Below the pieces are notes generated by a model. It saw nothing but the letters and a program-made list of their open reading frames with translations. It did not search any database and was not told the origin of the DNA. Both the position numbers and the translations under genes were made by a program. Of a DNA stretch of 64,000 nucleotides, positions 1 through 15,345 are shown piece by piece. The stretch covers positions 1,550,001 to 1,614,000 of the forward strand of contig NZ_CP092431.1 of the NCBI RefSeq assembly GCF_022385335.1, read 5' to 3'. The first letter of the stretch is position 1. Every line of letters begins with the position of its first letter. The stretch is from Streptomyces deccanensis (GTDB taxonomy: Bacteria > Actinomycetota > Actinomycetes > Streptomycetales > Streptomycetaceae).

Positions 1-438
1 CAGGAGCAGGCCGGCATCATCCGGCGCGGCGCCAAACTGCTGTACGCGTACGCCGAGGCGACCGTCCCCAAGGTGACGGTGGTGGTGCGCAAGGCGTACG
101 GCGGCGGGTACGCGGTGATGGGGTCCAAGCACCTGGGCGCAGACATCAACCTCGCGTGGCCCACCGCCCGGATCGCCGTCATGGGCGCCGAGGGCGCGGT
201 GGGCGTGCTGCACCGCCGCGAACTCGCCGCCGCCGCCGACCCCGAGGCGCTGCGGGCCCGCCTGGTCACCGCGTACGAGAGCACGTACGGGACCCCGTAC
301 CTCGCCGCCGAGCGCGGCTACGTCGACGCCGTCATCGCCCCGCGCGACACCCGTGCCCACATCTGCCGCGCCCTGCGCGCCCTGCGCGGCAAGCGGGCCC
401 CGATGCCGGAACGGCGCCACGGCAACATCCCGCTCTGA
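1..438 (+). CDS. Acyl-CoA carboxylase, carboxyltransferase (beta) subunit, C-terminal part
   Basis: The reading frame is open from base 1 and ends at 438, so only the last 145 codons are present. The visible part includes the conserved run [17 protein letters not shown], then [16 protein letters not shown] and a tail with [21 protein letters not shown], all typical of the AccD/PccB carboxyltransferase C-terminal half that binds the acyl-CoA to be carboxylated. The family transfers CO2 from biotin to the alpha carbon of an acyl-CoA. Its position 229 bases before a fatty-acyl-AMP ligase and a Pks13-like synthase suggests it makes the 2-carboxyacyl-CoA used by that synthase, as AccD4 does in mycobacteria. 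Substrate chain length cannot be read from this fragment. Confidence 0.9.
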
Positions 439-667
439 GCACGCCCACGTGCGAGCGCGCACTCGCGTGAGCCGCGCCCACGCGAGTGCGGCCCACGGGG
501 CGCGCGCCGGGCACGCCGGGCACGCCGAGTCCGCCGGATCCCGCCACCCCGTCCCCCTTCACCACTGTCCGCCGTCCCCACGACCCCCACCCGCCCTCCC
601 CCGTAACCGCCGTCCCCCATCACCGCTGTGACCGCAAGCCGTCCCGCGACGTGAGGAGCCATGCCCG
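439..667. other. Intergenic gap between accD-like and FAAL genes
   Basis: No convincing gene is seen here. The stretch is very GC-rich and C-biased on the + strand. A GAGGAG ribosome-binding site at about 651-656 serves the ligase start at 668. No clear terminator hairpin follows the carboxylase gene, so the genes may be co-transcribed. Confidence 0.5.
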
Positions 668-2419
668 ATGGACAGCCGCCGCCCCCCGCTCGCGCCCGCC
701 TTCCGCAGTCTGCCGGAGTATGTGCGGCACTGGGCCGAGACCACCCCCGACCGCCGGGCGTTCACCTTCGTCGACCATCCCGCGCCGCAGTCGCGCGGCG
801 TCCACCGCACCCTGACCTGGCGCCGGCTCGATCTGCGGATGCGGGCCGTGGCCGCCCGGCTCGCCGCGGAGGCCGAGCCCGGGGAACGGGTCGCCGTACT
901 GTGCCCGCAGGGGACGGAGTACGTCACCGCCTTCCTCGGGGCGCTCGCCGCCGGACTGGTCGCCGTACCGCTGTATCCGCCCGGTCTGCCCGGGCAGGGC
1001 GACCGGCTGTCGGCGGTGCTGGCCGACGCGTCCCCGGCGGTCGTCGTCACGACGGCCCAAGTCCTGGACGCCGTAAGGGAGTTGTGCGAGGGCCGGGCGG
1101 TTCGGGTCGTCGCCGTGGACCGGATCCCGGACTCGGCCGCCGATGACGGAGAGCCGTCCTCCACGCCCGACGCCACCGCCGTCGCCTATCTCCAATACAC
1201 CTCCGGTTCGACCCGCACCCCGGCCGGGGTCGAGATCACCCATGCCAATGTCGTCGCCAACGCCCGCCAGGCGCTGTCCGCCTATGGTGCCGACGCGCAC
1301 CCGGCGACCTGTGTGGGCTGGCTGCCGCTCTACCACGACATGGGGCTGGTACTCAGTGTCGCGGCGCCGGTGGTGCGGGGGCTGCTGTCGGTGCTCATGG
1401 ACCCGGTGGCGTTCCTGCACGAGCCCGTGCGCTGGCTGCGGCTGCTGGCCGCCCATCCGCGCGCGTTGAGCGCGGCGCCCAACTTCGCCTACGACTACTG
1501 CGCTTCGGCGGTCACCGAGGCACAGAAGGCAGGGCTGCGCCTGGACGGGGTCATGGCGCTGATCAACGGCAGCGAGCCGGTCCGTCCCGGCACGGCCGAC
1601 CGTTTCCACGCCGCGTTCGCCGCCCAGGGCCTCGCCCCGCGGACGCACTGTCCGTCGTACGGCCTGGCCGAGGCGACCGTCTTCGTCAGCGCGGCCCGGC
1701 CCGGCGAGGCGCTGCGCGGATTCGCGCTCGACCGGGACGCCCTGGCCGCCGGCAAGGCCCTGCCCGCGCGCCCCGAGGACCCGAGGGCGGTGCTGCTGGC
1801 CGGCTGCGGCGCGCCGGCGGGCCAGCGGGTGCGGATCGCCGACCCGGTGTCCCGGGTCGCGCTGGCCGAGGGCGAGGTCGGCGAGATCTGGGTACAGGGC
1901 CCCAACGTCGGCCGGGGCTACCGGAACCAGGACCGGCAGACCCGGCGGGTCTTCGGTGCCCGGCTCGCCGATACCGCGTCCGGTCCGGGCGGATGGCTGC
2001 GGACCGGCGACCTGGGGACCGTCCTGGACGGGCAGTTGATCGTCACCGGGCGGCTGAAGGACCTCATCGTCGTCGACGGGCGCAACCACTACCCGCAGGA
2101 CGTGGAGGCCACGGCCCAGGAGGCGCATCAGGCCGTACGGCGCGACCGGCTCGCCGCGTTCGGCGTGCCGGGCGGCACCGGGGAACGGGTGGTCGTCGTC
2201 GCGGAGCACGCGCGGGCCGTGCCGCTCGCCGACATCGACGTGCCCGACCTCGTACGCACCGTCCGCGCCGCCGTCTCCGCCCGGCACGGGCTGCGGCTCG
2301 CCGACGTCGTCCTCGTACCGCCGGGGACGGTGCCCCGGACGTCCAGCGGAAAGGTCGCACGGGCGTCGACCCGTGAGCGCTATCTGGCGGGTGCCTACGC
2401 GGTGGGGGTCGGGGGATGA
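668..2419 (+). CDS. Fatty-acyl-AMP ligase (FAAL, FadD32-like)
   Basis: This 583-residue adenylate-forming enzyme probably activates a long-chain fatty acid as acyl-AMP and loads it onto an acyl carrier protein. The P-loop-like signature reads YLQYTSGSTRTPAGVEITHANV, the FAAL form in which TPAGV replaces the common TGKPKGV. SYGLAEATVFVS, also typical of FAALs, follows, with WLRTGDLG and the C-terminal SSGKVAR lysine. An ATG at 661 lies in another frame; the ATG at 668 has GAGGAG upstream. The stop overlaps the next start as ATGA, indicating translational coupling to the synthase. FadD32 plays this role for Pks13 in mycobacteria; chain length here is unknown. Confidence 0.92.
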   Translation: MDSRRPPLAPAFRSLPEYVRHWAETTPDRRAFTFVDHPAPQSRGVHRTLTWRRLDLRMRAVAARLAAEAEPGERVAVLCPQGTEYVTAFLGALAAGLVAVPLYPPGLPGQGDRLSAVLADASPAVVVTTAQVLDAVRELCEGRAVRVVAVDRIPDSAADDGEPSSTPDATAVAYLQYTSGSTRTPAGVEITHANVVANARQALSAYGADAHPATCVGWLPLYHDMGLVLSVAAPVVRGLLSVLMDPVAFLHEPVRWLRLLAAHPRALSAAPNFAYDYCASAVTEAQKAGLRLDGVMALINGSEPVRPGTADRFHAAFAAQGLAPRTHCPSYGLAEATVFVSAARPGEALRGFALDRDALAAGKALPARPEDPRAVLLAGCGAPAGQRVRIADPVSRVALAEGEVGEIWVQGPNVGRGYRNQDRQTRRVFGARLADTASGPGGWLRTGDLGTVLDGQLIVTGRLKDLIVVDGRNHYPQDVEATAQEAHQAVRRDRLAAFGVPGGTGERVVVVAEHARAVPLADIDVPDLVRTVRAAVSARHGLRLADVVLVPPGTVPRTSSGKVARASTRERYLAGAYAVGVGG

Positions 2420-5400
2420 GCGTCGTGGGTGAGGGCGGGAGCGAGGGCGAGGCTCAGGGCCATGGCCGGGGCCAGGACGAGGGCCGGGGCAGCAGCAAGG
2501 CCGGCAGCCCGGACGCACACAGAAGCGGGAGCGGAAGGGGGAGCGGAAGCGGGCTCGCGAGCCGGAGCGGGGAGGCCGGCGCGGGCGGTCCGCGACCGGT
2601 CTTCGCCGGCGGCCGGGATGGCCTGGTGCGGCGGCTGATCGCGGCGCAGGTAGCCGCCTGGCACGGCGGGGCCGCCGAGGACGTGCCGATGGACCGGCCG
2701 CTCGCGGATCTCGGGATGTCCTCGCGGGACGCGGTCGTACTGGCCGGCGAACTGTCCCGGGCGACGGGCCGCGAACTGCCGGCGACACTGCTGTGGGAGG
2801 CTCCCACCGGGGACGCGCTGGTGGCCCGGCTGTGCGACGGGACGGCGGACCTCGCACCGATGACGGACGGGATCCGGGCTGCGGGCCTCGCCCCGGTGAC
2901 GGACAGGATCCCGACGGCAGGCCACGCTCCGACGCTGAGCCCCACCCCGGCGCTGAGCCCCACCCCGGCGCTGAGCCTCGCTCCGAGCGCGGGCCTCGCT
3001 CCCGTGGCGGCCCCGTCACGGGAGGCCCCCGCGCCCGGTGAGCCCGTCGCGGTCGTCGGGGTCGGGTGTCGGCTGCCGGGTGGGGTGCACGGCCCGGCGG
3101 CGTACTGGCGGGCGCTCCTCGACGGTGTCGACGCGATCCGGCGCGTCCCGGAGGACCGGTGGCGGGACTTCACGCCGTACCCGCCCGCCGACGCGCTCCC
3201 GCACGGCGGCTACCTGGACGACATCGCCGGGTTCGACGCCGACTTCTTCCGTATCACCCCGCGCGAGGCCGCGGTGATGGACCCGCAGCAGCGGATCCTC
3301 CTGGAGGTCGTGCGGGAGACCCTCGACCACGCCGCCGTCCCGGCCGAATCCCTCGCGGGCAGCGCCACCGGCGTCTTCGTCGGTGTCTCCGCGCCCGAGT
3401 ACGGGCAGCTCACCGGCGCCGACCCGGCCGCCGTCGACCCCTGGGCGCCGGCCGGCGGAGCGCTCAGCGTGGCGGCGGGCCGGCTGGCGTACGTCCTGGA
3501 CACCCGGGGGCCGAGCCTGGCCGTCGACACCGCGTGTTCGTCGTCGCTGGTGGCCGTGCACCAGGCGTGCGTCAGTCTGCGCACGGGCGAGAGCGATCTC
3601 GCGATCGCCGCCGGGGTGAACCTGCTGCTCTCCCCGACCGTCACCGTCGCGTTCCTGCGGGCGGGTGCCCTCGCGCCGGACGGCCGGTGCAAACCGTTCT
3701 CCGAGGCGGCCGACGGCATCGGCCGGGGCGAAGGCTGCGCGGCGGTCCTGCTGAAACGCCTGTCCGACGCCGAACGGGACGGCGACCGGATCCTCGCCGT
3801 CGTCCGGGCCACCGCCGTCAACTCCGACGGACGCTCCAACGGCCTGCTGGCCCCCAACCCGGCCGCCCAGCAAGCCCTGTTGCGCACCGCGTACGCGCGT
3901 GCCGGGCTCTCCCCCTCGCACATCGACCACGTCGAGGCGCACGGCACCGGCACCCCGCTCGGTGACCCCATCGAGGCGGGCGCGCTCGGCGCCGTCCTCG
4001 GTGCGGGCCGCGACCCCGACCAGCCCCTGCTCCTGGGCTCGGTGAAGGGAAACCTGGGCCATCTGGAGTCCGCCGCGGGCATCGCCGGGCTGGTGAAGAC
4101 GGTGCTCGCGCTCCACCACGACCTGATCCCGCCCTCGCTGCACTGCGCCGAGGGCAGCGCTCTGGACGCCGACGCACGGCTGCGGGTCGTGACCGAGGCC
4201 GAGCCGTGGCCCCGGTACGGGGGTACGGCCACCGCCGGGGTCTCCGGGTTCGGGTTCGGCGGCACCAACGCCCACGCCGTACTGGAGGAATGGCGGCCGG
4301 GCGCCCTGCTGCCGCCCCCGGCCGAGGAACCCCGGGCCCGTCTCCATCTCCTCTCCGACCTCGACGCCGACCGGGTCCGCGACACCGCCGGCCTGCTCGC
4401 CGACTGGCTGGACACGCCCGAGGGCGGCGCCGCGCACCCCGCCGACGTGGCGCGCACGCTCGCCGGGCGAACGGGCTGGGGGCCGGTGCGGGCGGCGGTG
4501 GTCGCCGCGGACCGCGCCGAACTGGCGGACGGACTGCGGGCGTTGGCGGACGGGCGGCCCCACACGCGGGTACTGGTGGGCGACCGGGATGTCGTGGGGC
4601 GCGGGCCGGTGTGGGTGTTCTCCGGGTACGGCAGCCAGTGGGCCGGCATGGGCCGCCGGCTCCTCGTCGAGGAGCCCGCCTTCGCCGCGGCCGTGGAGAA
4701 ACTGGACGGACAACTGGCCCCCGCATGCGGGCTCTCCCTCTACGAGCACCTGGCCTCCGGCGGCGACCTCGACCGTCTTGAGGTCGCCCAACCCGTCCTC
4801 CTGGGCATGCAGTTGGCGCTCGCGGAGCTGTGGCGCGCCTACGGTGTCGAGCCGGTCGCCGTCATCGGTCACTCCCTGGGCGAGGTGGCCGCGGCGGTGT
4901 GCGCGGGCGCGCTGGAGGTGTCGGAGGCGGCCCGGGTGGTGGCCGTACGGGCCAGGCTGCTCAGCGGGCTGCGGGGCGGGGCGATGGCGGTGGTGGACCT
5001 CGATGACGCCGAACTCCCGCTGCTGGAGCGGGACTTCCCAGGTGTCCAGGTCGCCGTGCACTCCTCCCCCGGCCAGAAGGTGGTCACCGGGGAGGGCGAG
5101 TCGGTGGCCCGGCTGGTGGAGCGGCTGGAGAAGGAGGGGCGGGCCGCGCGGGCGATGCGGGTGGTCGGGGCGGGTCATTCGGCCCAGGTGGACCCGCTGC
5201 TGCCGGAGCTGACGGCGGAACTGGCCGACATTCGGGGTGAGTGCCCCCGGCTCCCGGTCTACTCGACCGTGCTGGACGATCCGCGTGGCGACTGCGTGTT
5301 CGACGCGGCGCACTGGGCGGCCAACCTGCGGCGGCCCGTGCGTCTCGACCGGGCGGTGGCCGCGGCCGCCGCCGACGGCCACACCGCGTTCGTCGAACTC

Positions 5401-6945
5401 TCGCCCCACCCGGTCCTGGTCCGGGCGATCACGGACAACGCGCCGGGCGCCCTCACCCTCGGCACGCTCCACCGGGACGCCGACACCTCGGCCGACTTCC
5501 TGAGCCGTCTGGGCACCCTGCACACCGCCGGGTCCCGGCTCCCGCTGCCTGCGGGCCGCGTCATCGACCTGCCCGCGCCGCGCTGGCGCCACGCGCGGCA
5601 CTGGTGGACGGACGGCCGGGCGGGTCGGGCAGTCGCGGAGGGCGAGGGAGGCCGCGACGACGGCGGGGTCCGGGTGACGGTGGAGAGCCATGGGGTGCCC
5701 GGTCGCCACGTCCAGAACGCGGCCCCCGGCCCGGCCGACGACCTCGGCGTCGCCAGAGCAGGGGATCCCGACCGACCCACTTCTGTCACCGCCCGCCTCT
5801 GTCACCACATCGCGGCGGTCACCGGGCACCCTGCCACCCGGATCACCCCCGCCACCGCCCTGTCCGACCTGGGCCTGGACTCCCTGATGGCCGTCCGCAT
5901 CCGCACCGCCCTCGAACGCGAGCTGGCCATCGACCTCCCCCTCCGCGACCTCCTGAACGCGGGCACGATCGAGGCCACGGCGTCCCGCATCGAGCAGGCA
6001 CTGTCGAGGGATGAGACCCCGGAAGGGGAGGTCCGGCAGCCGGTTCCGCCACCCACCGTCGCCGGCCCCCACACGCCGCCTCGGTCCGTCCGCCCGCTCC
6101 GCCCGCCCCTCCCGCCCCGGCGCACCACCACCCACCCCCTCCTCCGCCCCCTCCAGCCCTCCGGCTCCCGCCCCCCGCTCTTCCTCGTCCACGCCGCCGG
6201 AGGGACCACCGACGTCTACCGGGGTCTCGTCGAACGGCTGGGCGGGGAGCGGCCGGTGTACGGGATGGAGCGGGTCGACGAGGCGCGTACGGTCGTCGAG
6301 AAGGCCCGGCGGTACGCCGAGGCCGTGGCGGCCGTGCATCCCGACGGCCCCTGCCTGCTGGGTGGTTGGTCGTTCGGCGGCTTCGTCGCGCAGGAGGCGG
6401 CCCGGCAGCTCACTGCCGCCGGCCGGGACGTGCGGCGGGTGGTGCTCATCGATTCCGTACGGCCGCTCCCCCGCCCCGAGGAGACACCGGCCGAGCGGAT
6501 CCGCGCCCATTTCACCGGCTTCGCCCGCCACGTCGCCGACACCTACGGGGTCGAACTGGAGCTGCCGTACGACGAGTTGGCCGCGACGCGGGACGACAGC
6601 GAGCGGGTCGACACGGTGCTGCGGGTCCTGCGCGAGGCCGTCGACGTGCCGCGCGCGGCCCTCGACCACCAGCGGTCCTCCTATGTGGACCTGCGGATAG
6701 GCGAGGCCCACCGACCGGGCCGCCACGACGGGCCGGTGGTGCTGTACCGGGCGACCGAGCCCGCCCCGCACACCGTGCGCGACCCCGCGTACGAGCGCGA
6801 CGACGAGGCGCTCGGCTGGGACGAGGTGTGCCCGCGGCTGACCGTCGTCCGGGTCACGGGTCACCATCTGTCGCTGCTCGACCCCCCGCACGTCGACGAG
6901 ATCGCCGCCCATCTGCGGTGGGAGCTCGCCGACGACCACCGCTGA
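2416..6945 (+). CDS. Pks13-like polyketide synthase, ACP-KS-AT-ACP-TE
   Basis: This 1509-residue single-module synthase has a low-complexity Ala/Gly/Pro-rich start, then an N-terminal ACP (DLGMSS, phosphopantetheine Ser about 103). A ketosynthase starts near 209 (Cys374 in DTACSSS, His509 in HGTGTP, His549 in GNLGHLES). The acyltransferase (GHSLGE Ser about 820) has GAGHSAQVDP where YASH or HAFH usually occurs. A second ACP (GLDS, Ser about 1156) and a thioesterase (GWSFGG, Ser about 1319; His at 1483/1484) follow. An N-terminal ACP before KS is rare and is the hallmark of mycobacterial Pks13, which condenses two fatty acyl chains. No KR, DH or ER is seen, so a beta-keto product is expected. 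Residues about 145-205 carry short proline/leucine repeats. Confidence 0.92.
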   Translation: MSVVGEGGSEGEAQGHGRGQDEGRGSSKAGSPDAHRSGSGRGSGSGLASRSGEAGAGGPRPVFAGGRDGLVRRLIAAQVAAWHGGAAEDVPMDRPLADLGMSSRDAVVLAGELSRATGRELPATLLWEAPTGDALVARLCDGTADLAPMTDGIRAAGLAPVTDRIPTAGHAPTLSPTPALSPTPALSLAPSAGLAPVAAPSREAPAPGEPVAVVGVGCRLPGGVHGPAAYWRALLDGVDAIRRVPEDRWRDFTPYPPADALPHGGYLDDIAGFDADFFRITPREAAVMDPQQRILLEVVRETLDHAAVPAESLAGSATGVFVGVSAPEYGQLTGADPAAVDPWAPAGGALSVAAGRLAYVLDTRGPSLAVDTACSSSLVAVHQACVSLRTGESDLAIAAGVNLLLSPTVTVAFLRAGALAPDGRCKPFSEAADGIGRGEGCAAVLLKRLSDAERDGDRILAVVRATAVNSDGRSNGLLAPNPAAQQALLRTAYARAGLSPSHIDHVEAHGTGTPLGDPIEAGALGAVLGAGRDPDQPLLLGSVKGNLGHLESAAGIAGLVKTVLALHHDLIPPSLHCAEGSALDADARLRVVTEAEPWPRYGGTATAGVSGFGFGGTNAHAVLEEWRPGALLPPPAEEPRARLHLLSDLDADRVRDTAGLLADWLDTPEGGAAHPADVARTLAGRTGWGPVRAAVVAADRAELADGLRALADGRPHTRVLVGDRDVVGRGPVWVFSGYGSQWAGMGRRLLVEEPAFAAAVEKLDGQLAPACGLSLYEHLASGGDLDRLEVAQPVLLGMQLALAELWRAYGVEPVAVIGHSLGEVAAAVCAGALEVSEAARVVAVRARLLSGLRGGAMAVVDLDDAELPLLERDFPGVQVAVHSSPGQKVVTGEGESVARLVERLEKEGRAARAMRVVGAGHSAQVDPLLPELTAELADIRGECPRLPVYSTVLDDPRGDCVFDAAHWAANLRRPVRLDRAVAAAAADGHTAFVELSPHPVLVRAITDNAPGALTLGTLHRDADTSADFLSRLGTLHTAGSRLPLPAGRVIDLPAPRWRHARHWWTDGRAGRAVAEGEGGRDDGGVRVTVESHGVPGRHVQNAAPGPADDLGVARAGDPDRPTSVTARLCHHIAAVTGHPATRITPATALSDLGLDSLMAVRIRTALERELAIDLPLRDLLNAGTIEATASRIEQALSRDETPEGEVRQPVPPPTVAGPHTPPRSVRPLRPPLPPRRTTTHPLLRPLQPSGSRPPLFLVHAAGGTTDVYRGLVERLGGERPVYGMERVDEARTVVEKARRYAEAVAAVHPDGPCLLGGWSFGGFVAQEAARQLTAAGRDVRRVVLIDSVRPLPRPEETPAERIRAHFTGFARHVADTYGVELELPYDELAATRDDSERVDTVLRVLREAVDVPRAALDHQRSSYVDLRIGEAHRPGRHDGPVVLYRATEPAPHTVRDPAYERDDEALGWDEVCPRLTVVRVTGHHLSLLDPPHVDEIAAHLRWELADDHR

Positions 6946-6966
6946 ACCGAGCCGAGGAGAGCCGCC

Positions 6967-8001
6967 ATGCCCGAGCCCATCGCCCCCACCGACCCCACCG
7001 ACCGCGCCGCCGCGCCGTCCCGCCGCGCCGTCACCAGAGCGGCCGCCGTGACCGGACTGGCCGCCCTCCTCGGTGCCGCGACCACCCGCACCGCCGGGGC
7101 GACCGTGCCCCGGCCCCCCGCCCGGCGCACCGGCCGGACCGCCGCCACGACCACAACCCCCGCCCCCGTCACCCGCCTCGGCCCCCGGACCCTCGACGTC
7201 TCCCTCCCCTCGGCGGCCCTGGGCCGCAGCGCCCCGGTGCGGCTGATCCTCCCCTCCTCCTTCGACGCGCAGCCGACCCGGACGTATCCCGTGCTGTACC
7301 TCCTCCACGGCGCGCACGACGACCACACGTCCTGGACCCGGGAGACGGACATCGAGGCGTTCACGGCGGGCCGGGAGCTGATCGTGGCGATGCCGGACGC
7401 GGGACCGACCGGCATTCCCACCGCCTGGCGCAGCGGCCCGGACTACGAGACGTTCCAGGTCGAGGAGGTCCCGGCGCTGCTCGCCCGGCAGTACCGGGCG
7501 TCCGGGGTCCGGGTGGTGGCCGGTGTCTCGACGGGCGGCTACGGGGCCATGGCGCACGCGGCCCGGCACCCCGGGGCCTTCGCCGCGGCGGCCTCGTACA
7601 GCGGCATCCTCGACACGACGGCACCCGGCGTGCCGCCCCTGATGGACGCCATCGTCGCCCGCGAGAACCTCGCGCCCCTGTCACTGTGGGGCAACCCCGT
7701 CCTGAACGTGCTCACCTGGCGGGACTTCAACCCGCGTTCCCGGGCGGCAGGGCTGCGCGGCACTCCCCTGTACGTGTCGAGCGGCAGCGGAGTGGTCGGC
7801 GGTATCGGCGACTGGCTGCCCGAGGCGCTGGAGAGCCTGCTCTGGCCGTCCGCCCACGCGTTCGCGGACACCCTGGCGCTGCTGCGCATCCCGGTGACAA
7901 CCCATTTCTACGCGGGAGGGGGACACGGCTGGGCGTACTGGAAGCGGGAGTTCACGGCGTCGTGGCCGATGCTCGCCGGTGCGCTGGGGGTGCCGGCGTG
8001 A
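6967..8001 (+). CDS. Secreted esterase of the antigen 85 / esterase D family
   Basis: This is a 344-residue alpha/beta hydrolase with an N-terminal twin-arginine-like export signal (SRRAVTRAAAVTGLAALLGAA) and an Ala/Pro/Thr-rich linker. The core YPVLYLLHGAHDDHTSW forms the oxyanion-hole region, GVSTGGYGA holds the nucleophile Ser about 188, and the C-terminal HFYAGGGHGWAYW supplies the likely catalytic His. The fold family (PF00756) includes S-formylglutathione hydrolase and the mycobacterial mycolyltransferases (antigen 85). It starts 22 bases after the synthase with AGGAG upstream, so it is probably in the same operon. Location suggests it transfers or cleaves the synthase product outside the membrane; true mycolyltransferase activity is inference. 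Confidence 0.82.
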   Translation: MPEPIAPTDPTDRAAAPSRRAVTRAAAVTGLAALLGAATTRTAGATVPRPPARRTGRTAATTTTPAPVTRLGPRTLDVSLPSAALGRSAPVRLILPSSFDAQPTRTYPVLYLLHGAHDDHTSWTRETDIEAFTAGRELIVAMPDAGPTGIPTAWRSGPDYETFQVEEVPALLARQYRASGVRVVAGVSTGGYGAMAHAARHPGAFAAAASYSGILDTTAPGVPPLMDAIVARENLAPLSLWGNPVLNVLTWRDFNPRSRAAGLRGTPLYVSSGSGVVGGIGDWLPEALESLLWPSAHAFADTLALLRIPVTTHFYAGGGHGWAYWKREFTASWPMLAGALGVPA

Positions 8002-8123
8002 GGCCGGTGCCGTCGGGGCACGGAACGGAGCGCAGGGGACGTCCGTCGAACCCAGGACTTGTCCCTCGCCCCACGGGCGTCAGCCCGCGGGTGAGTCGCT
8101 TCCGGGTGAAAGGAGGGTCCGCC

Positions 8124-9338
8124 GTGGCTGCCCCCGTCCCGCCGTACGGCGTACCGAACGGTCCCGGTGCCGCCCCGGTGCCGCCCGAACTGGTCACACT
8201 GCTGCGCGAACAGTTGAAGGACGTCGCCGACCAGGTGGAGGCGGAGGTGTGCAGACAGGTCCCGGAGTACGCCTCCCGGGCGCTCGACGGAGCGAGCCGC
8301 GCACTGCTCAGATCGGGGGTCGTGCAGGCGCTCACCCTGTTCGTCGACCACATCGCCGATCCGCGCGGCCGGGGAGACTCGATCGCCGCGATCTATCACG
8401 AGCTGGGGCGGGGCGAGGCGCTGGAGGGCCACAGCCTCGAAACACTGCAGTCCGCGCTGCGGGTCGGCGGGCTGCACGCCTGGCGGCTGCTGGGCCGCAC
8501 GACGGAGGAACTCGGGTTGGACTCCTCGGTCATGGCGAGGCTGGGTGAACTGGCGTTCCGGACGGTGCACGAGGTGGCCGAGGCCGCGGCGGCGGGGTAC
8601 GCGGAGGGGCAGCTGCGCGGCACGGACGAGCTGGAACGGCGCCGAGGGCGGCTGCTCGCCCTGTTGCTGGGCGAGAGGCCGGTGTCGCCGGAGGCGGTGC
8701 GCGACCTGGCGCACGGCGCCCGGTGGTCCGTGCCGACGCACGTCGCGGTCGTCGTCCTCGCGGCCTCGCCCGACCGGCGGGAGGAGCGGCCGTTGGCCGC
8801 CGCCGGGGCGCTGGTGGACATGGAGTCCCGGCCACCACGGATGCTCGTGCCCGACCCGGACGGCTCGGGCGGCTTCGGCGGCAGGGCGTTCACGCTCGCG
8901 CTGCGGGGGCTGCCGGCCGCGATCGGGCCGTCGGTTCCGCTCACGGAGGCCGCCCGGTCGCTGCACTGGGCGGTCCGGGCGCTCGGGCTGATGGGGCGCG
9001 GCATTCTGCCCCGGCAGGGTGTGGTGCGCTGCGCCGACCATCTGTCGACGCTGCTGCTGCACAGCGACGAAGCGCTGCTCGCGCGGCTCCAGGCACGCGC
9101 GCTGGCCCCGCTGGAGGCGGTGGCGGAAGGGCCGCGGGGCCGGCTGGCCGAGACGCTCCTCGCGTGGCTGCTCAGCGGCAGCAACGTGCCCGATGTCGCC
9201 GCTCGTCTCCATGTCCATCCGCAGACGGTCCGCTACCGCCTGCGTCAGTTGGAGAAACTCTTCGGAGACGCCCTGCACGATCCCGGCACCCGTCTGGACC
9301 TGATTCTCGCGCTCACCTCCGCGCAAAAAGAAAACTGA
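8124..9338 (+). CDS. PucR-type helix-turn-helix regulator
   Basis: The GTG at 8124 is chosen because AGGAGG lies seven bases upstream (8111-8116); it gives 404 residues, and the frame stays open far upstream without a better signal. The N-terminal two thirds resemble the sensory half of PucR/CdaR-like actinobacterial regulators. The end is the characteristic PucR C-terminal HTH: LAETLLAWLLSGSNVPDVAA followed by HVHPQTVRYRLRQLEKLFG. Such proteins are usually transcriptional activators. It lies between the secreted esterase and the cutinase, on the same strand, so it is a good candidate regulator of this lipid locus. Ligand and operator are not evident. Confidence 0.85.
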   Translation: MAAPVPPYGVPNGPGAAPVPPELVTLLREQLKDVADQVEAEVCRQVPEYASRALDGASRALLRSGVVQALTLFVDHIADPRGRGDSIAAIYHELGRGEALEGHSLETLQSALRVGGLHAWRLLGRTTEELGLDSSVMARLGELAFRTVHEVAEAAAAGYAEGQLRGTDELERRRGRLLALLLGERPVSPEAVRDLAHGARWSVPTHVAVVVLAASPDRREERPLAAAGALVDMESRPPRMLVPDPDGSGGFGGRAFTLALRGLPAAIGPSVPLTEAARSLHWAVRALGLMGRGILPRQGVVRCADHLSTLLLHSDEALLARLQARALAPLEAVAEGPRGRLAETLLAWLLSGSNVPDVAARLHVHPQTVRYRLRQLEKLFGDALHDPGTRLDLILALTSAQKEN

Positions 9339-9438
9339 TTCCTGAATTTCCATCCATAACACTCGGCACGACCCAGCGAATAGCTTCGGGACGTCCTTTC
9401 CGCAGGCGCTCCTCGCGCCCCACCCTCAAAGGATCCCC

Positions 9439-10077
9439 ATGCGTATTCGCTTGTGTCTCGCCGCGCTCTCGCTGGTCGGCGGGGCCGGACTGGCCACCGT
9501 CTCGGCGCCCGCCGCCACGGCCGCGGCCTGCACGGACATCGACGTCGTCGCCGCTCGCGGCACCTTCGAGCCGGGCACGCTCGGCTTCATCGTCGGTGAC
9601 CCCGTGTATTCCGCGCTGCAGAAGAAAATCACCGGCAAATCACTGTCCAGCTACAAGGTGAACTACCCCGCGGACCTTTCTCTCACGTCGGCCGCGCAGG
9701 GCAACACGGATCTGGTGAACCACGTCAGGAGTCAGGCGGCGTCCTGCCCGAACCAGCGTTTCATCCTGGTCGGCTATTCGCAGGGCGCGAACGTCGTCGA
9801 CAACTCCATCGGCATCAGCAGCGCGGGCGCGGTGGTCGGCAGTCCCATCGTGGCGACCATCCCCGCCGCGCTCGAACCGAGGGTCTCCGCGGTGCTGCTG
9901 TTCGGCAACCCGATCCGGGCCATCGGCAAGAGCGTCACCGGCACCTACCAGAGCCGCACCATCGACTTCTGCGCGACCGGCGACCCCGTGTGCGAGAACG
10001 GCGGCGACGTGGGAGCCCACCTCGGCTACACCGCGAACGCCGACGCGGCGGCGACCTTCGCCGCGACGAAGGTCTGA
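9439..10077 (+). CDS. Secreted cutinase family hydrolase
   Basis: This is a 212-residue serine esterase with a Sec signal peptide ending near ATAAACTD. The mature protein opens with DIDVVAARGTFEPG, the typical actinobacterial cutinase start. The nucleophile Ser114 lies in GYSQGAN, and the remaining triad is Asp182 (CATGDPVC, between disulfide cysteines) and His194 (GAHLGY). Cutinases hydrolyse cutin and other esters. Mycobacterial relatives (Culp proteins, notably Rv3802c) are encoded beside pks13 and act on envelope lipids. It could serve either plant cutin degradation or the adjacent lipid system. A strong terminator follows. Confidence 0.93.
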   Translation: MRIRLCLAALSLVGGAGLATVSAPAATAAACTDIDVVAARGTFEPGTLGFIVGDPVYSALQKKITGKSLSSYKVNYPADLSLTSAAQGNTDLVNHVRSQAASCPNQRFILVGYSQGANVVDNSIGISSAGAVVGSPIVATIPAALEPRVSAVLLFGNPIRAIGKSVTGTYQSRTIDFCATGDPVCENGGDVGAHLGYTANADAAATFAATKV

Positions 10078-10174: not shown

Positions 10175-11905
10175 CTAGTTGGGGTTCCGCGCGAACTCGG
10201 TCAGGCTCGTCGAGACGGGCTCGGGGCGGCCGTTGTTCTGGGTGGGTGCGGCGGTCAGTACGTCCAGGTGCTGGTAGCCGTCGGCGACCACCGGGTCCAG
10301 GTCGGCCGGGACTCGGCCCGCCAGGAGTCCGTCGCCCGCGAGCACGGTGAGCGTCGGGTTGGCGGTGAGGCCGTCCGGGTGGACGACGAGCCGCTTCACC
10401 TGGGGCGAGGTGGCGAGTTGGAGATCGGTGACGAGCTTGGTCGGGAAGTACTGCTCGGTGAAGTCCAGCGGTTGCTGGGCCATGCTGCGGGCCAGTTCCT
10501 GGATGTCGGTGACCTCCTTGGACGCGTCGGTGAACGGGGTGCCGTCGGCCGACCGGTACCCGGGGTCGTCGGGGTCGCCGACCCGGTCGTAGTTGCGCCA
10601 GGTGTAGAGGGGGCCGCCCGGCCGGTCGGGGATGGCCTTGTACTCGCTGCCGAACAGCGCCGGTTGCGCGGAACTCCCGTTGGCGACGGGGAAGTTCTTG
10701 TCGGCGATCGGCCCGCCGTCGAAGAAGCCCACGCTGCTCTGGAGGAACGCCAGCGGTACGGAGTGGTCGTCCATCAGCGCGCCGAGGACCGCCTCGTTGG
10801 TGAGCCGGAAGTCCTTCACCGCCGGTGAGCCGGAGAGGAAGGTGGCGGTGTCCTCGGAGAACAGGAAGCGGTTGGTGACCTCGATGTTGGTGTTCAGCGG
10901 CAGATAGTTCGGCAGGGTGGCCTCCCCGTCCGGGTCCTGCAGCGCGCCGAGGCCGGCAATTGCCAGCAGGGTCATCATCTCGGGGTTGAGGAGCACCGGC
11001 GCGGAGAGCGTGCGGGAGAGGAGCCCGCTGTCGAGCCCGGCCTGCACGGCACCGTAACCGAGGCCGATGTCGGGCAGGTTGGTGTCGTCCGGGATGCTGC
11101 CGCTGAGGTCGGCGAGGGAGGTGGAGACGGTGGTGTCGAGGGCGAACCAGCCGCCGCACTGGCGGTGTCCGGCGTCGGCCGTGGTGGTCCGGTCGCCGTC
11201 GAAGTCGGCGGTCGCGAAGTAGCCGGTGATCACCCCGCCCAGCGAGTGCCCCCCGCACAGCAGTTTCCCCTTGCGCACCCGCGGGTCGGGGAGTTCGGCG
11301 GTGAGCAGGTCGTACTGGTCGCGGACGGTCCGTTCGATCCCGAGCTTCGCCATCCAGCCCAGGTCGGCGTTGGCGACGTAGCCGTCGAAGGTGCGGCCGT
11401 CGACCCGCTTGTCGCGGTAGTAGTAGTCGACGGCCGTGTGCTGGTCGCCGGAGGCGACGCCGGTGCGGTCCTCCAGGCAGTTGGAGCGCCGGTCCAGCGC
11501 CCAGAACTCGATGTGCCGTCCTTGTCCGGCGGCGCGGGCGACGGTGTTGCGGGCGACGCTGTCGAAGGCTCCGGCGCCTTCCAGGATGCCCGGCTGGGCG
11601 ACGAGGATCCGGTCGGCGTCGGCCGAGGCGGCGGGCCCGTCGGCGGATCGGTAGCGCAGGTACGACAGCCAGTCGCACGCCGCCGGTCGCGCCCCGAAGG
11701 ACGCCGGCAGGGGCGCCCTCACCCGGACCAGCGTCTCGGTCACCCCGTCGACGGGGCTCGTCGACGCGACGGCCGTCTCGGTGCGTGCGCTCTCGCCCCG
11801 GGCGTCCGGGGCGGCACCGGTGACCGCTCCGACGGTCAGCAGCACCGCCAGCGCGGCACCGCGCAGCGCCCTCAGGTTCCTTCCCTTGCTGCGACTCGTG
11901 TTCAT
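10175..11905 (-). CDS. Secreted lipase-like alpha/beta hydrolase
   Basis: This is a 576-residue exported protein starting at ATG 11905 (MNTSRSKGRNLRALRGAAL), which gives a proper positively charged signal peptide; a GTG at 11938 would add 11 residues without a ribosome-binding site. The nucleophile elbow GGHSLGG (Ser about 221) and following GVITGYFATADFDGD indicate a lipase or esterase fold. The first half has a cysteine pair (ACDWL, NCLED). I cannot assign a substrate. It is transcribed towards the cutinase and shares its terminator. It is much longer than simple lipases, with a C-terminal region (about 350-576) of unknown role. Confidence 0.7.
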   Translation of the reverse strand: MNTSRSKGRNLRALRGAALAVLLTVGAVTGAAPDARGESARTETAVASTSPVDGVTETLVRVRAPLPASFGARPAACDWLSYLRYRSADGPAASADADRILVAQPGILEGAGAFDSVARNTVARAAGQGRHIEFWALDRRSNCLEDRTGVASGDQHTAVDYYYRDKRVDGRTFDGYVANADLGWMAKLGIERTVRDQYDLLTAELPDPRVRKGKLLCGGHSLGGVITGYFATADFDGDRTTTADAGHRQCGGWFALDTTVSTSLADLSGSIPDDTNLPDIGLGYGAVQAGLDSGLLSRTLSAPVLLNPEMMTLLAIAGLGALQDPDGEATLPNYLPLNTNIEVTNRFLFSEDTATFLSGSPAVKDFRLTNEAVLGALMDDHSVPLAFLQSSVGFFDGGPIADKNFPVANGSSAQPALFGSEYKAIPDRPGGPLYTWRNYDRVGDPDDPGYRSADGTPFTDASKEVTDIQELARSMAQQPLDFTEQYFPTKLVTDLQLATSPQVKRLVVHPDGLTANPTLTVLAGDGLLAGRVPADLDPVVADGYQHLDVLTAAPTQNNGRPEPVSTSLTEFARNPN

Positions 11906-12015
11906 GCTGGGACGGTAGGACCGCGCGAGCGACCCCACCGCCCCATGCTCACAACAACGCAGCCACCGTCGGCCCCTTTGTCACCAGGCACCAACCGCCG
12001 CTGCCCGCAGCCGAC

Positions 12016-12618
12016 TCACAGTCCGTCGCTCACCATCGCGGACACGATCCGGACGTGCCGGTCGGCCGCCGTGCCGGAGAACTCGTTGTCGTAGTTCAGC
12101 CCGTACGGCCAGAAGTGGCCGCCGCCGGTGGAGATCTTCGCGCTCGCCCCGTCGTACTGCCGGACCAGCGCGGTGGCCCGCGAGCCGGTCCAGGTGCCGC
12201 TGCCGCCCAGCCGCGACCAGCCCGCGCTGGTGCCGACGCCTATGGTGTGCGCGATCTCGTGCAGCGCGGTCCGCTCGTTCATGTAGCTGCGGTTGGAGCC
12301 GAAGCGGATGGTTCCGTTGATGTTGCCGTCGGCGGTGGGGACGCCCGGCTCGTAGCGGACGGTGATGTTCTTGCCGAGGTCGCTGAGGTTGTTGTACCGG
12401 GCGACGGCCGCGTTCATGGCGGCCGTGATGGTGGCGTACGCCGACTGCTGGTCCTGGGTCGGGTTGCTCGCCCGTACGAGGGTCCAGGTGATGGTGGCGG
12501 CCGCCGCCCGCTCGCCGGGCACGGGCCCGGCCTGCGGGGCCGCCTGCGCGACACCGGGTCCGGCGAGCAGCACGGCCGCCAGGGCGGCCATGACCACCTT
12601 CCTGCGCGGTGAGTTCAT
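12016..12618 (-). CDS. Small secreted zinc metalloprotease-like protein
   Basis: This 200-residue protein has a Sec signal peptide (MNSPRRKVVMAALAAVLLAGPGVAQA) and a strong ribosome-binding site (GAAGGAGAG) before ATG 12618. The mature part has a zinc-binding HEIAH (His120-His124) followed by TIGVG, as in secreted metalloproteases, and conserved ITWTLVRASNPT and GHFWPYGLNYDNEFS segments. The third zinc ligand is not obvious, so proteolytic activity is inferred. The tnpB element lies immediately upstream, starting about 50 bases from the start codon and possibly between this gene and its original promoter. Confidence 0.7.
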   Translation of the reverse strand: MNSPRRKVVMAALAAVLLAGPGVAQAAPQAGPVPGERAAAATITWTLVRASNPTQDQQSAYATITAAMNAAVARYNNLSDLGKNITVRYEPGVPTADGNINGTIRFGSNRSYMNERTALHEIAHTIGVGTSAGWSRLGGSGTWTGSRATALVRQYDGASAKISTGGGHFWPYGLNYDNEFSGTAADRHVRIVSAMVSDGL

Positions 12619-12694: not shown

Positions 12695-12909
12695 AGGAAT
12701 CGCGTCCTGTGGCTGCGTCGCGGGGCGTCGCGGGGCGTCCTCTTCGGAGGCGGAGCGCCATACGGCTGCGGGCCCGAAGAAGCTGAAGGGCGATGAACCG
12801 GCAGTGCGATCGGACATCTGACGAGAATGGCTGTTCGAGTCGTCAGTGGATCGGGTGCTCGATGGCCGAACATCCCTCGGGTGGGCGCGAGGCGGGTAGC
12901 TTCGGGGGC

Positions 12910-14067
12910 ATGAAGCTGGTGGTGCGGGTGAAGCTGATGCCGGAGGCCGAGCAGGCCGCCGCGCTTCTCGCGACGCTGCGCACGGTCAACGAGGCCGCGA
13001 ACTGGGTGTCGGCGGTGGCGTTCGCGCAGGGTGTGCCGCGTGAGTACGAGCTGCGTAAGCACACCTACGCGCAGTTGAGGTCGCAGGGTCTGGGGGCGCA
13101 GGCTGCCCAGCACACCATCAAGAAGGTCCGTGACGCCTACACGACGCTCAAGGCCAACATCAAGGCCGGGAACCTGGGCAGACCGGGCTCGAAGCGGCGC
13201 GGGAAGGCCGAGTCCAAGCCTGTCGCCTTTCGGCCCGAGGCGGCCCAGCCGTATGACGACCGGTGCTTGTCCTGGCAGTTGGACGCGCAGACGGTGTCGA
13301 TCTGGACCACAGCCGGACGTATCCGGCAGGTGCGGTTCGTCTGCTCCGCCGACGGTCTGAAGATGCTGCGCGAGCACCGGCAGGGCGAATCGGATCTGAT
13401 CGAACGCGACGGCGTGTTCTACCTGATCGCTACCTGCGAGGTCCCCGAGGAAGACCAGTACGAGCCCGACGGGTTCATCGGCGTCGACCTCGGCATCGTC
13501 AACATCGCCACTACGTCCACCGGCTACCGGGCCGCCGGCCGCGGCCTGAACCGCCGCCGTACACGCGAACGTGACCTGCGCGCCAAGCTCCAGAAGAAGA
13601 ACACCAAGTCCGCAAAGAGGCGGCTCAAGGCACGTGCCCGCAAAGAGCAGCGGCATGTGAAGAACACCAACCATGTGATCGCGAAGCGCATCGTGACCGA
13701 GGCTGAACGCACCTCGGTCGGCATCGCCCTGGAGGACCTGGGCGGCATCCGGCAGAGGGTACGGCTCCGCAAGCCCCAACGGGTCATGGTGCACTCCTGG
13801 GCCTTTGCTCAGCTCGGAGAGTTCATCGCGTACAAGGCACGCCGTGCGGGCGTGCCCGTGGTTCACGTCGATCCGGCCCACACCTCGCAGACGTGCTGCG
13901 AGTGCGGGCACGTCGACAGGAAGAACCGGGTCGACCAGGCCCTCTTCGTCTGCCGGAACTGCGGGGTCGTTGCCCACGCGGACCGGAACGCTTCCCACAA
14001 CATCGCCCGACGTGGCGCCGAGGTGTGGAATGCGGGGCGTGAGTCACGCGTCCCTGCCACCCCATAA
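12910..14067 (+). CDS. tnpB: TnpB RNA-guided nuclease (IS605 OrfB family)
   Basis: This 385-residue protein carries a full RuvC triad: Asp193 (GVDLGIVN), Glu275 (ALEDLGG) and Asp358 (HADRNAS). The zinc ribbon CCECGHVD ... FVCRNCG is intact. The N-terminal basic domain and MKLVVRVKL start are normal for the family. An in-frame ATG at 12862 would add 16 residues; 12910 fits family length better. TnpB proteins use an RNA from the element's 3' end to cut DNA next to a short motif, which helps keep the element at its site. All catalytic residues are present, so it is probably active. Confidence 0.92.
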   Translation: MKLVVRVKLMPEAEQAAALLATLRTVNEAANWVSAVAFAQGVPREYELRKHTYAQLRSQGLGAQAAQHTIKKVRDAYTTLKANIKAGNLGRPGSKRRGKAESKPVAFRPEAAQPYDDRCLSWQLDAQTVSIWTTAGRIRQVRFVCSADGLKMLREHRQGESDLIERDGVFYLIATCEVPEEDQYEPDGFIGVDLGIVNIATTSTGYRAAGRGLNRRRTRERDLRAKLQKKNTKSAKRRLKARARKEQRHVKNTNHVIAKRIVTEAERTSVGIALEDLGGIRQRVRLRKPQRVMVHSWAFAQLGEFIAYKARRAGVPVVHVDPAHTSQTCCECGHVDRKNRVDQALFVCRNCGVVAHADRNASHNIARRGAEVWNAGRESRVPATP

Positions 14068-14147
14068 CGGGGTGTCTGGACGGAGGAGTCCACCCCGGCA
14101 CCCAGCTGGGCACTACCTCCAGGCCCGGCACTCCAGAGCCGGGTCAA
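14020..14147 (+). ncRNA. Predicted omega RNA (reRNA) of TnpB
   Basis: By family precedent, the guide-scaffold RNA overlaps the 3' end of tnpB and the right end of the element. Here the sequence after the stop codon contains nested hairpins (GGGTGTCTGGACGGAGGAGT and CCGGC/GCCGG at 14125-14142). The guide would begin just past 14147, reading into the 3' end of the pectate lyase gene. The 5' end is a guess. Confidence 0.5.
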
Positions 14148-15169
14148 GTTGACGCGCCGAGCTTTCCGGTGCCTGCCCCGGCCCGTACGAGGGCCGGGAC
14201 GTCTGCGGCGGGGTCCAGCGTGTAGGCGTAGTACGTGCGGGGTTCGCCGACCGTGCCGTTGGTCTCGCACGCGCCGGAGCCGTTGAAGACGTTGTTGCGC
14301 TGGATCAGTCGGCCCGGCCCCGAGGCGTCGTAGCCACTCGCGGAGTAGCAGGGGTGGGGGACGCCCTCGAAGTGGTTGCCCTCGACGACGACGCCCGCGT
14401 TCATCGTCGAGGCGACGCCGTAGATGGCGTTGCCCTTGTAATAGTTGTTGTAGACGTGCACCGGCTCGCCGAACCGGACCCGGGGGTGCCGCTGCCGTGA
14501 GCCGTCGAAGAAGTTGTGGTGGACGGAGACCTTCAACTTCCCCGTGTCCTGGCTGCCGTTGCCGTCGGAGTGCCCGAGCAGCATGCTCTTGTCGGTCTTG
14601 TTGAACCAGTTCCAGGAGACGGTGACGTACTCGGCGGCGCGGACCACGTCGACCGCGCCGTCGAGCGGGGCGACGAACTCGTTGTGGTCGATCCAGATGT
14701 GGTGGGACTCCCGGCCCACGCTGATGGCGTCGTCCTCGGCGTTGGTGAACTTGATGTTCCGCACGATGACGTTGAAGGAGCGGTAGAACTCCAGGCCGCC
14801 GCCGTCGATGACGGCCGAGGAACCGACCCCGATGATGGTCTTGTTCGGGCGGACGCCCTGTTTGCTGGTGATGTCGATCGTGCCCTGGACCCGGATGACG
14901 AGCGGGCCCGTGGTGTCGATGTACTCCAGGAACTGCTCGGTGGTGGTGGCGGTGACGGTGGGTCCGCCGGCCCCGCCGGTGGTGCCGTTCTGTCCGAGCG
15001 CGTTGACGGCGGCGAAGCCGGTGGGGGACGTCTCCGCGAGCGGGGCCGACCGCGCGGCGGCGGCTCCGGCCTCGGGCACCGCCTCGACGGGCGCGGCCTC
15101 GACCGGCGCCGCCGCTGCGAGCAGCAAGGCGAGCGTGAGTGCGGAAAGCGTGCGTGACGACGACCTCAT
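14144..15169 (-). CDS. Secreted pectate lyase, polysaccharide lyase family 1
   Basis: This is a 341-residue parallel beta-helix enzyme cleaving polygalacturonate by beta-elimination. Start ATG 15169 (MRSSSRTLSALTLALLLAAAAP) has GGGAGGAACCGT upstream and a clear signal peptide. PL1 landmarks are GFAAVNALGQNGTTGG, HHIWIDHNEF (Ca-binding Asp region), VTVSWNWFNKTDKSMLLGH and QRHPRVRFG with the catalytic arginine region. It diverges from the GH30 gene, with a LacI-like operator between them. The last residues (LGAST) and the TGA stop at 14146-14144 fall in the TCAA right end of the tnpB element, so the native C-terminus may have been a few residues different. Confidence 0.92.
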   Translation of the reverse strand: MRSSSRTLSALTLALLLAAAAPVEAAPVEAVPEAGAAAARSAPLAETSPTGFAAVNALGQNGTTGGAGGPTVTATTTEQFLEYIDTTGPLVIRVQGTIDITSKQGVRPNKTIIGVGSSAVIDGGGLEFYRSFNVIVRNIKFTNAEDDAISVGRESHHIWIDHNEFVAPLDGAVDVVRAAEYVTVSWNWFNKTDKSMLLGHSDGNGSQDTGKLKVSVHHNFFDGSRQRHPRVRFGEPVHVYNNYYKGNAIYGVASTMNAGVVVEGNHFEGVPHPCYSASGYDASGPGRLIQRNNVFNGSGACETNGTVGEPRTYYAYTLDPAADVPALVRAGAGTGKLGAST

Positions 15170-15256
15170 ACGGTTCCTCCCGGGACGAGTGGGGGACGTT
15201 CCTGGGGATGTTCCTGGGGCCTGCGAATTCGCGGGAATCCGTGCACACAAGGACTA

Positions 15257-15268: not shown

Positions 15269-15345
15269 AGTTTCCTGAATGCTAAGCACGTGTTTTGGGC
15301 ATGTCAACGAGATCGCGTTCGCCTCTGTGTTGTGGAAGGAGTGTC

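Follow-up and report, generated by a model that had tools for sequence, protein, structure and literature searches.

Organization of the locus

The 64,000-nucleotide stretch analyzed here (the window) comprises bases 1550001-1614000 of the 10.10 Mb single-contig genome of Streptomyces deccanensis (contig NZ_CP092431.1). At its left end lies a block of seven genes centered on a type I synthase related to Pks13, the condensing enzyme of mycolic acid synthesis, and on a fatty acyl-AMP ligase (FAAL). The domains of the synthase are abbreviated as ACP (acyl carrier protein), KS (ketosynthase), AT (acyltransferase) and TE (thioesterase). The block consists of the following genes, given with the evidence for each:

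1..438, + strand: 3′ end of the gene for an AccD-type carboxylase beta subunit (Pfam PF01039, Carboxyl_trans C-terminus)
668..2419, + strand: FAAL gene (NCBIfam PRK05850, FadD32 model, PDB ranking)
2416..6945, + strand: type I synthase ACP-KS-AT-ACP-TE, 1509 aa (Pfam, NCBIfam, PDB)
6967..8001, + strand: secreted esterase of the Ag85/PS1 superfamily (PF00756)
8124..9338, + strand: PucR-type transcription regulator (HTH_30, PF13556)
9439..10077, + strand: secreted cutinase, Sub1 orthologue (PF01083)
10175..11938, - strand: HYD587, secreted hydrolase-like protein, seventh member of the block (conservation; GGHSLGG)

The first six genes had been named by an initial annotation, made from the window sequence alone, as a mycolic-acid-type condensation locus on one strand with the PucR gene inside it, and Pfam and NCBIfam bore out their presence and their position. 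The extent then proposed, 1..10077, proved too narrow: the block starts about 1.3 kb upstream of the window edge and ends at 11938. Only the last 145 residues of the carboxylase lie inside the window; the remainder was taken from the same contig (L011), where the whole gene occupies 10738-12438 with a GTG start at 10738 or 10744. The FAAL and synthase genes share 4 bases and the esterase gene follows the synthase gene after a gap of 21 bases, while longer gaps precede the FAAL (229 bases), PucR (122 bases) and cutinase (100 bases) genes. A promoter and terminator scan returned no promoter-like site and two terminator-like sites against 1.6 expected.

Conservation of the block in Streptomyces

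A species-genome collection was scanned with the synthase alone and the best 80 of 502 relatives were fetched, 71 of which, from 70 genomes, were of the window type. These genomes are all titled Streptomyces except one “Actinobacteria bacterium”, and the nearest of the fetched loci is that of Streptomyces caniscabiei (97% KS identity). Counted over the window-type loci whose fetched stretch has room for the gene, the carboxylase was kept in 67/67, the FAAL in 68/68, the esterase in 62/62, PucR in 62/62, the cutinase in 61/61 and HYD587 in 57/59. Gene order and strands were identical in all 53 loci carrying the seven genes. Around the block, the upstream RlpA-like gene (3/66), a TetR gene (0/64), the metalloprotease-like gene downstream (9/59) and the pectate lyase gene (3/56) are not kept across loci and were therefore rejected as members.

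Such co-occurrence across the fetched loci exceeds chance. Orthologues of the FAAL (at least 72% identity, one of them partial) and of the cutinase (at least 82%) were then surveyed in 295 evenly sampled Streptomyces genomes; each was found in 39 genomes, 37 of which were common to both (Fisher p 3e-42, a value that takes no account of common ancestry or of physical linkage). Both FAAL-only genomes are fragmented assemblies, of 630 and 1010 contigs, and the cutinase-only pair consists of 1020 and 120 contigs. Rows G505 and G614 of the cutinase survey (46-48%) and G517 and G519 of the FAAL survey (56-58%) were left out as orthologues. Judged by the FAAL orthologues (39/295), about one in eight of the sampled Streptomyces genomes carries the block. 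In one genome, G646, the FAAL is 79% but the cutinase 96% identical to that of the window, hinting that parts of the block may have been exchanged between species. A literature search confined to titles and abstract openings, with few subscription journals, returned no account of the locus in Streptomyces.

Relationship of the synthase to Pks13

The domains of the synthase were delimited as follows:

2623..2862, + strand: N-terminal ACP, residues about 70-149 (LGMSSRDAV aligned to LGLSSRDAV of Pks13 ACP1)
3040..4146, + strand: KS, residues 209-577 (Pfam; DTACSSS cysteine motif; trees)
4609..5538, + strand: AT, residues 732-1041 (Pfam; SGYGSQ and GAGHS motifs)
5794..5988, + strand: second ACP, residues 1127-1191 (Pfam PF00550; LGLDSL)
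6175..6918, + strand: TE, residues 1254 to about 1501 (Pfam PF00975; GGWSFGG; aligned to Pks13 as far as residue 1501)

The order ACP-KS-AT-ACP-TE and the catalytic motifs are those of Pks13, and a Pfam scan of the synthase matched no ketoreductase (KR), dehydratase (DH) or enoylreductase (ER) domain. Pks13 is both the best NCBIfam model of the synthase (NF040607, 1165 bits, below the cut-off of 2100) and its best solved relative in the PDB (830 bits; next MAS, 671). Genuine Pks13 loci were obtained as the 14 loci above the cut-off in 396 genomes of the phylum, all of one family. They score 2583-2836 bits on NF040607, each is flanked by FAAL and AccD genes, and the TE domains of all 14 are matched by that of the window at 34-39% identity. 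Thirty further loci were taken from four of these genomes, six pieces of Pks13 genes (L127, L130, L133, L137, L141, L150) being set aside. Where loci are called PccB-like, AccB-like, Pps-like or MAS-like, the label is our own.

Analysis of the KS domains in an unrooted tree of 61 rows gathered 33 rows, among them Pks13 and the window family, on one side with support 99/94 against 28 others. This clade also holds synthases of Amycolatopsis, Saccharopolyspora, Streptosporangium, Planomonospora and S. longisporoflavus and two further relatives. The same 33 rows group in the unrooted AT tree, less firmly (87/96). The nearest KS row outside the clade is L124, which we took for PpsA-like; its pairwise identity to the window KS is 57.9%, compared with 51.8-56.0% for the Pks13 rows. 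The KS tree was also built with 73 rows. L086, L139 and L152 were removed from both versions, and the 61-row KS tree and the AT tree were further freed of L002-L005, L081, L082, L126 and L149 (long-branch, redundant or partial), with window-type rows thinned to seven plus the window. The long-branched L003 stood unresolved beside the Pks13 clade in the 73-row tree before it was dropped. In the best KS tree Pks13 lies among the Amycolatopsis and Saccharopolyspora rows; a topology holding all non-Pks13 rows together was not rejected (approximately unbiased test, p 0.228), so that Pks13 may, but need not, derive from within this group.

The initial annotation had called the synthase Pks13-like and had let its reading depend on where the synthase would fall in trees and on whether the genes co-occur. 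The KS trees place the synthase with Pks13, by which an ordinary polyketide synthase (PKS) loading module was rejected, and the genes are kept together across Streptomyces loci.

FAAL and carboxylase

The FAAL scored 572 bits on the fatty-acid-AMP ligase model PRK05850 (cut-off 775) and 521 bits on the FadD32 model NF038339 (cut-off 975), both below threshold. Among solved structures it is closest to an “Acyl-CoA synthase” entry, with 442 bits, followed by FadD32 with 410. The description of this protein as FadD32-like thus holds for its nearest structures and does not extend to membership of the FadD32 family. The FAAL is expected to load a fatty acid onto the N-terminal ACP of the synthase.

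The carboxylase, first described as AccD4-like, is PccB-like overall in the PDB ranking (695 bits against 510 for the AccD4 entry). It falls outside the AccD4 branch in an unrooted AccD tree, from which L121 and L122 were omitted (their residues at the pocket sites discussed below are Phe and Tyr), and was on that placement rejected as an AccD4 orthologue. What it does share with AccD4 is an open acyl pocket, lacking both Phe160 and Asp422 (PccB numbering).

Extender pockets of the AT and the carboxylase

According to PMC9900942, Phe709 of Pks13 stacks against the carboxylate of the substrate, and Ser905-His906 lie at the catalytic center. The Phe709 position was located through the alignment of the window synthase to Pks13. 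It is aromatic (Tyr) in 66/69 window-family rows and Phe in 14/14 Pks13 rows. At the catalytic histidine, Gly-Ala-Gly-His is found in all 69 window-family rows, while Pks13 has Gly-Ala-Ser-His in 10/14 and Gly-Ala-Gly-His in 4/14. All 33 other PKS rows lack both the aromatic residue and the Gly of the motif. Two members of the KS clade, L092 and L093, combine Tyr at the aromatic position with Ala-Ala-Gly-His. The AT pocket of the window family has Gly where Tyr, His or Val is usual.

For the carboxylase, the comparison was with MccB (SamR0483), the stambomycin carboxylase, in which two pocket positions are linked to chain length. According to PMC5187497, MccB carboxylates hexanoyl-CoA and differs from PccB by missing the acyl-pocket Phe and Asp, the Phe being universal in subunits known for substrates of C4 or shorter. 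The window carboxylase has lost both residues as well, with Val at the Phe position where MccB has Gly; MccB serves a modular macrolide PKS. Phe160/Asp422 of PccB are replaced by Val/Ala in 67/67 readable window-family carboxylases, one more row being unreadable at the second position. At these positions, AccD4 beside Pks13 has Gly/Ala (13/14) or Ser/Ala (1/14), and the Amycolatopsis and Saccharopolyspora carboxylases have Gly/Ala (five) or Ala/Ala (one). Six paralogues in the genome of the window retain the Phe, paired with Asp (two, PccB-like), Ile (two) or Tyr (two). Since two enzymes of the block with unrelated pockets depart in the same direction, they point to an extender unit that would be larger than methylmalonyl-CoA.

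Secreted enzymes

The esterase (344 aa) displays the catalytic triad S188, E289 and H320 and a twin-arginine-like N-terminus (SRRAVTRA, read by eye). Its best sequence match is PS1, and the 16 top rows of a fold search all belong to the Ag85 superfamily (six proteins: MytA, MytC, Ag85A, Ag85B, Ag85C and MPT51). The mycoloyltransferase fold and the Ser-Glu-His triad are therefore common to this enzyme, C. glutamicum PS1/MytA and Ag85, and its initial assignment to the Ag85 family was supported. In three of five mycolate genomes, its best match sits 5.4-6.4 kb from pks13; these matches are frames of 566-692 aa, and the window esterase lacks such a C-terminal extension. It also differs from PS1 and Ag85 near the presumed trehalose site. 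One Asp position, which we take to be a trehalose contact in Ag85-type enzymes, is Asp in 1/10 window-family rows (Ala in the window) against 24/28 rows from mycolate genomes (25 distinct, given three identical pairs). The esterase tree, unrooted with a nearest branch of 84/19, contains no ordinary esterases and thus cannot alone prove mycoloyltransferase membership.

The cutinase had been likened to Rv3802c. It reached only 23.6 bits on the Culp6 (Rv3802c) model NF050160, whose cut-off is 570, and proved instead to be the orthologue of the Sub1 suberinase of S. scabiei: the sub1 primers given in PMC7104285 match both ends of the orthologue in L019, which has 91% identity to the window cutinase and lies in the same locus. 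Equivalence with Rv3802c was rejected on both grounds. PMC7104285 describes Sub1 as suberin-induced and active on cutin, suberin and polyethylene terephthalate (PET), and its main text appears silent on the genes neighboring sub1. With the block described here, the suberinase gains conserved genomic partners.

HYD587 matched no Pfam or NCBIfam family, and its best hit in a PDB sequence search had an E value of 0.31. The protein is well conserved (mean column identity 86% over 14 sequences) and carries a nucleophile-elbow-like GGHSLGG, which makes it a candidate new hydrolase family; its predicted fold had a mean pLDDT (predicted local distance difference test) of 36.

Related loci in other genera

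Nine related synthase loci (L080, L083-L085, L087-L091) were compared over their fetched stretches, in which an Ag85-like esterase was found in 9/9, a FAAL in 8/9 (one cut by the stretch end), PucR in 7/9, a carboxylase in 6/9 and a cutinase in 2/9 (L085, L087). Eight of them (all but L080) come from Amycolatopsis, Saccharopolyspora, Planomonospora and Streptosporangium. Like the window, these eight belong to the KS clade and carry Gly-Ala-Gly-His (8/8), the esterase (8/8), the FAAL (7/8), the carboxylase (6/8), PucR (6/8) and, in two cases, the cutinase (2/8). Unlike the window synthase, those of L084, L085, L087 and L089, the four scanned, read ACP-KS-AT-DH-KR-ACP-TE, while the L080 and L093 synthases are devoid of reducing domains, as in the window. 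Secreted LIP lipases are encoded in L080, L084, L085, L087 and L090, and MFS transporters in L080, L087, L090 and L091. MmpL-family genes lie near the synthases at L085:4730-6760, L087:4553-6811 and L089:534-4412.

Beside the L088 synthase stands a gene for a zinc-binding dehydrogenase (L088:14004-15683), which could possibly be a trans enoyl reductase; related frames occur close to the L080 and L089 synthases. L092, from genome G008, coded as the same genus, has a KS-clade synthase with DH-like sequence along with its Ala-Ala-Gly-His motif.

Pks13 itself is reported to contain, behind the AT, a half-DH without catalytic activity, termed DH* (PMC11649247). Between AT and second ACP, the window synthase has 235 residues and Pks13 333-366 (12/14 rows, measured by motif search). 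Among the eight rows from Amycolatopsis, Saccharopolyspora and Streptosporangiaceae, this spacing reaches 867-949 residues in seven and 346 in the eighth (L088). The window spacing therefore leaves little room for a DH*, by length alone. A DH profile derived from the DH-KR synthases gave at most 18 bits for every listed target except L092 (143), and at this sensitivity neither finds nor excludes a remnant. Taken together, the spacings would suit an ancestor bearing DH and KR that underwent separate losses.

Neither Streptomyces nor the other genera carrying related loci are known to make mycolates. It is conceivable, though short of probable, that the condensation of mycolates represents a single offshoot of an older, broader actinobacterial toolkit. 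In this view, genera not known for mycolates would make and export alpha-branched acyl lipids by means of a FAAL, a synthase of the Pks13 lineage, a carboxylase acting on medium or long chains, MmpL or MFS transporters and secreted mycoloyltransferase-like and cutinase enzymes. The ancestral DH-KR would then have been kept in the Amycolatopsis type, reduced to a dead DH* in Pks13, and lost altogether in a Streptomyces branch making an unreduced beta-keto lipid ester not built on trehalose.

Proposed pathway and alternatives

The window shares with the fadD32-pks13-accD4 locus a FAAL, the ACP-KS-AT-ACP-TE synthase, a carboxylase, the KS clade, the AT signature and Ag85-family genes nearby. It differs in that its proteins remain under the family cut-offs, its carboxylase belongs to another branch and its AT-ACP2 distance is shorter. 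To judge from sequence, the system would work like mycolate condensation while standing, by the tests run, outside the Pks13, FadD32 and AccD4 families. The initial annotation was in this respect right in kind and in error on the equivalence to AccD4 and Rv3802c.

We consider it fairly probable that the block is a Pks13-type condensation pathway for a non-mycolate lipid, with a single condensation, a larger-than-methyl extender and an extracellular step acting on esters. Gene content, conservation, family placement, catalytic residues and pocket signatures were observed directly, while the substrates, product, acceptor, localization and regulation of the following scheme are what we infer. The FAAL would adenylate a fatty acid, which would pass to the N-terminal ACP and then to the KS cysteine. 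Together with further carboxylase subunits that the genome encodes, the carboxylase would supply an alkylmalonyl-CoA larger than methylmalonyl-CoA, and the AT, with its Gly pocket, would place the alkylmalonyl unit on the second ACP. One decarboxylative Claisen condensation by the KS would yield an alpha-alkyl beta-ketoacyl thioester, which the TE may free or hand to a small acceptor. Because the conserved block holds no reductase, the product would leave as a beta-keto lipid or be reduced by an enzyme encoded elsewhere; a CmrA-type reductase is lacking there, the search having covered the block alone. After export, the mycoloyltransferase-fold enzyme might either pass the acyl chain on to an acceptor, an Ag85-like transfer to trehalose being improbable, or cleave it off, and the Sub1-type cutinase and HYD587 could hydrolyze or remodel such esters, under a PucR protein that would regulate the block. 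This proposed chemistry agrees in outline with the beta-keto or beta-hydroxy lipid, attached or trimmed outside the cell, that had been suggested at the outset. The product is probably an undescribed branched lipid related to mycolates, and no known compound matched the prediction. A gene set related to that for mycolates, with the same kind of carboxylase and synthase pockets and with a protein of the mycoloyltransferase fold, is now seen in Streptomyces and in genera not known for mycolates, and the origin of mycolic acids and a possible new class of Streptomyces lipids become testable in tractable strains.

Several observations weigh against this pathway and would fit PpsA/MAS-like chemistry, in which a PKS primed by the FAAL makes a single extension with methylmalonyl-CoA or some other short unit and the product is a short beta-keto lipid with an alpha-methyl branch. 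PpsA, too, has an N-terminal ACP fed by a FAAL, and PpsA/MAS-type synthases are highly similar to the window synthase over KS and AT. Taken alone, the AT ranks PpsA, PpsC and MAS above Pks13, with 48% identity to the Pps-like L128 against 32-37% to the Pks13 rows. The KS is likewise 58% identical to L124 and 52-56% to Pks13, and the carboxylase resembles PccB overall. We nevertheless hold a short extender to be unlikely: both pocket signatures diverge from those of methylmalonyl enzymes, and do so in a common direction, the KS clade leaves out the rows that we labeled Pps- and MAS-like, and the AT tree sets the family with Pks13 and its relatives apart from them. These rows read VAPH, VASH or LASH at the histidine motif and have Gln, Arg or His at the aromatic position.

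Two further explanations concern the fate of the product rather than its extender. The secreted enzymes could mainly form a module for breaking down the plant polyesters suberin and cutin, the synthase making a helper surfactant or signal and the Ag85-like protein being a hydrolase. The substrates and suberin induction of Sub1 (PMC7104285) and the pectate lyase and GH30-type genes directly downstream in the window speak for such a module, which we still regard as distinctly unlikely. Alternatively, the synthase might release a free beta-keto acid that becomes a long-chain ketone, with no extracellular esterification and an esterase acting on unrelated esters. The reductase-free block would accommodate this, and ketones are reported to accumulate in mycobacteria without the mycolate reductase (PMC2568869). 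We hold it to be very improbable, given that the genes for the secreted Ag85-like protein, the cutinase and HYD587 are strictly linked to that of the synthase and that related synthases have genes for MmpL or MFS transporters in their vicinity.

Downstream neighbors

Beyond the block, the domain scan identified the following genes:

12793-14067, + strand: TnpB-like protein (Cas12f1-like TNB and OrfB_IS605 domains)
14144-15250, - strand: pectate lyase
15295-18537, + strand: large GH30-type protein with lectin-like domains

The GH30-type gene was positive in 9/9 judgeable loci, the other fetched stretches ending before it, and was neither counted among the members of the block nor rejected. Relatives of the TnpB-like gene were found in none of 58 loci with room for it. 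In the window, this gene overlaps a long open reading frame on the opposite strand; the metalloprotease-like gene, with an HExxH motif identified by eye, forms the C-terminal portion of that frame.

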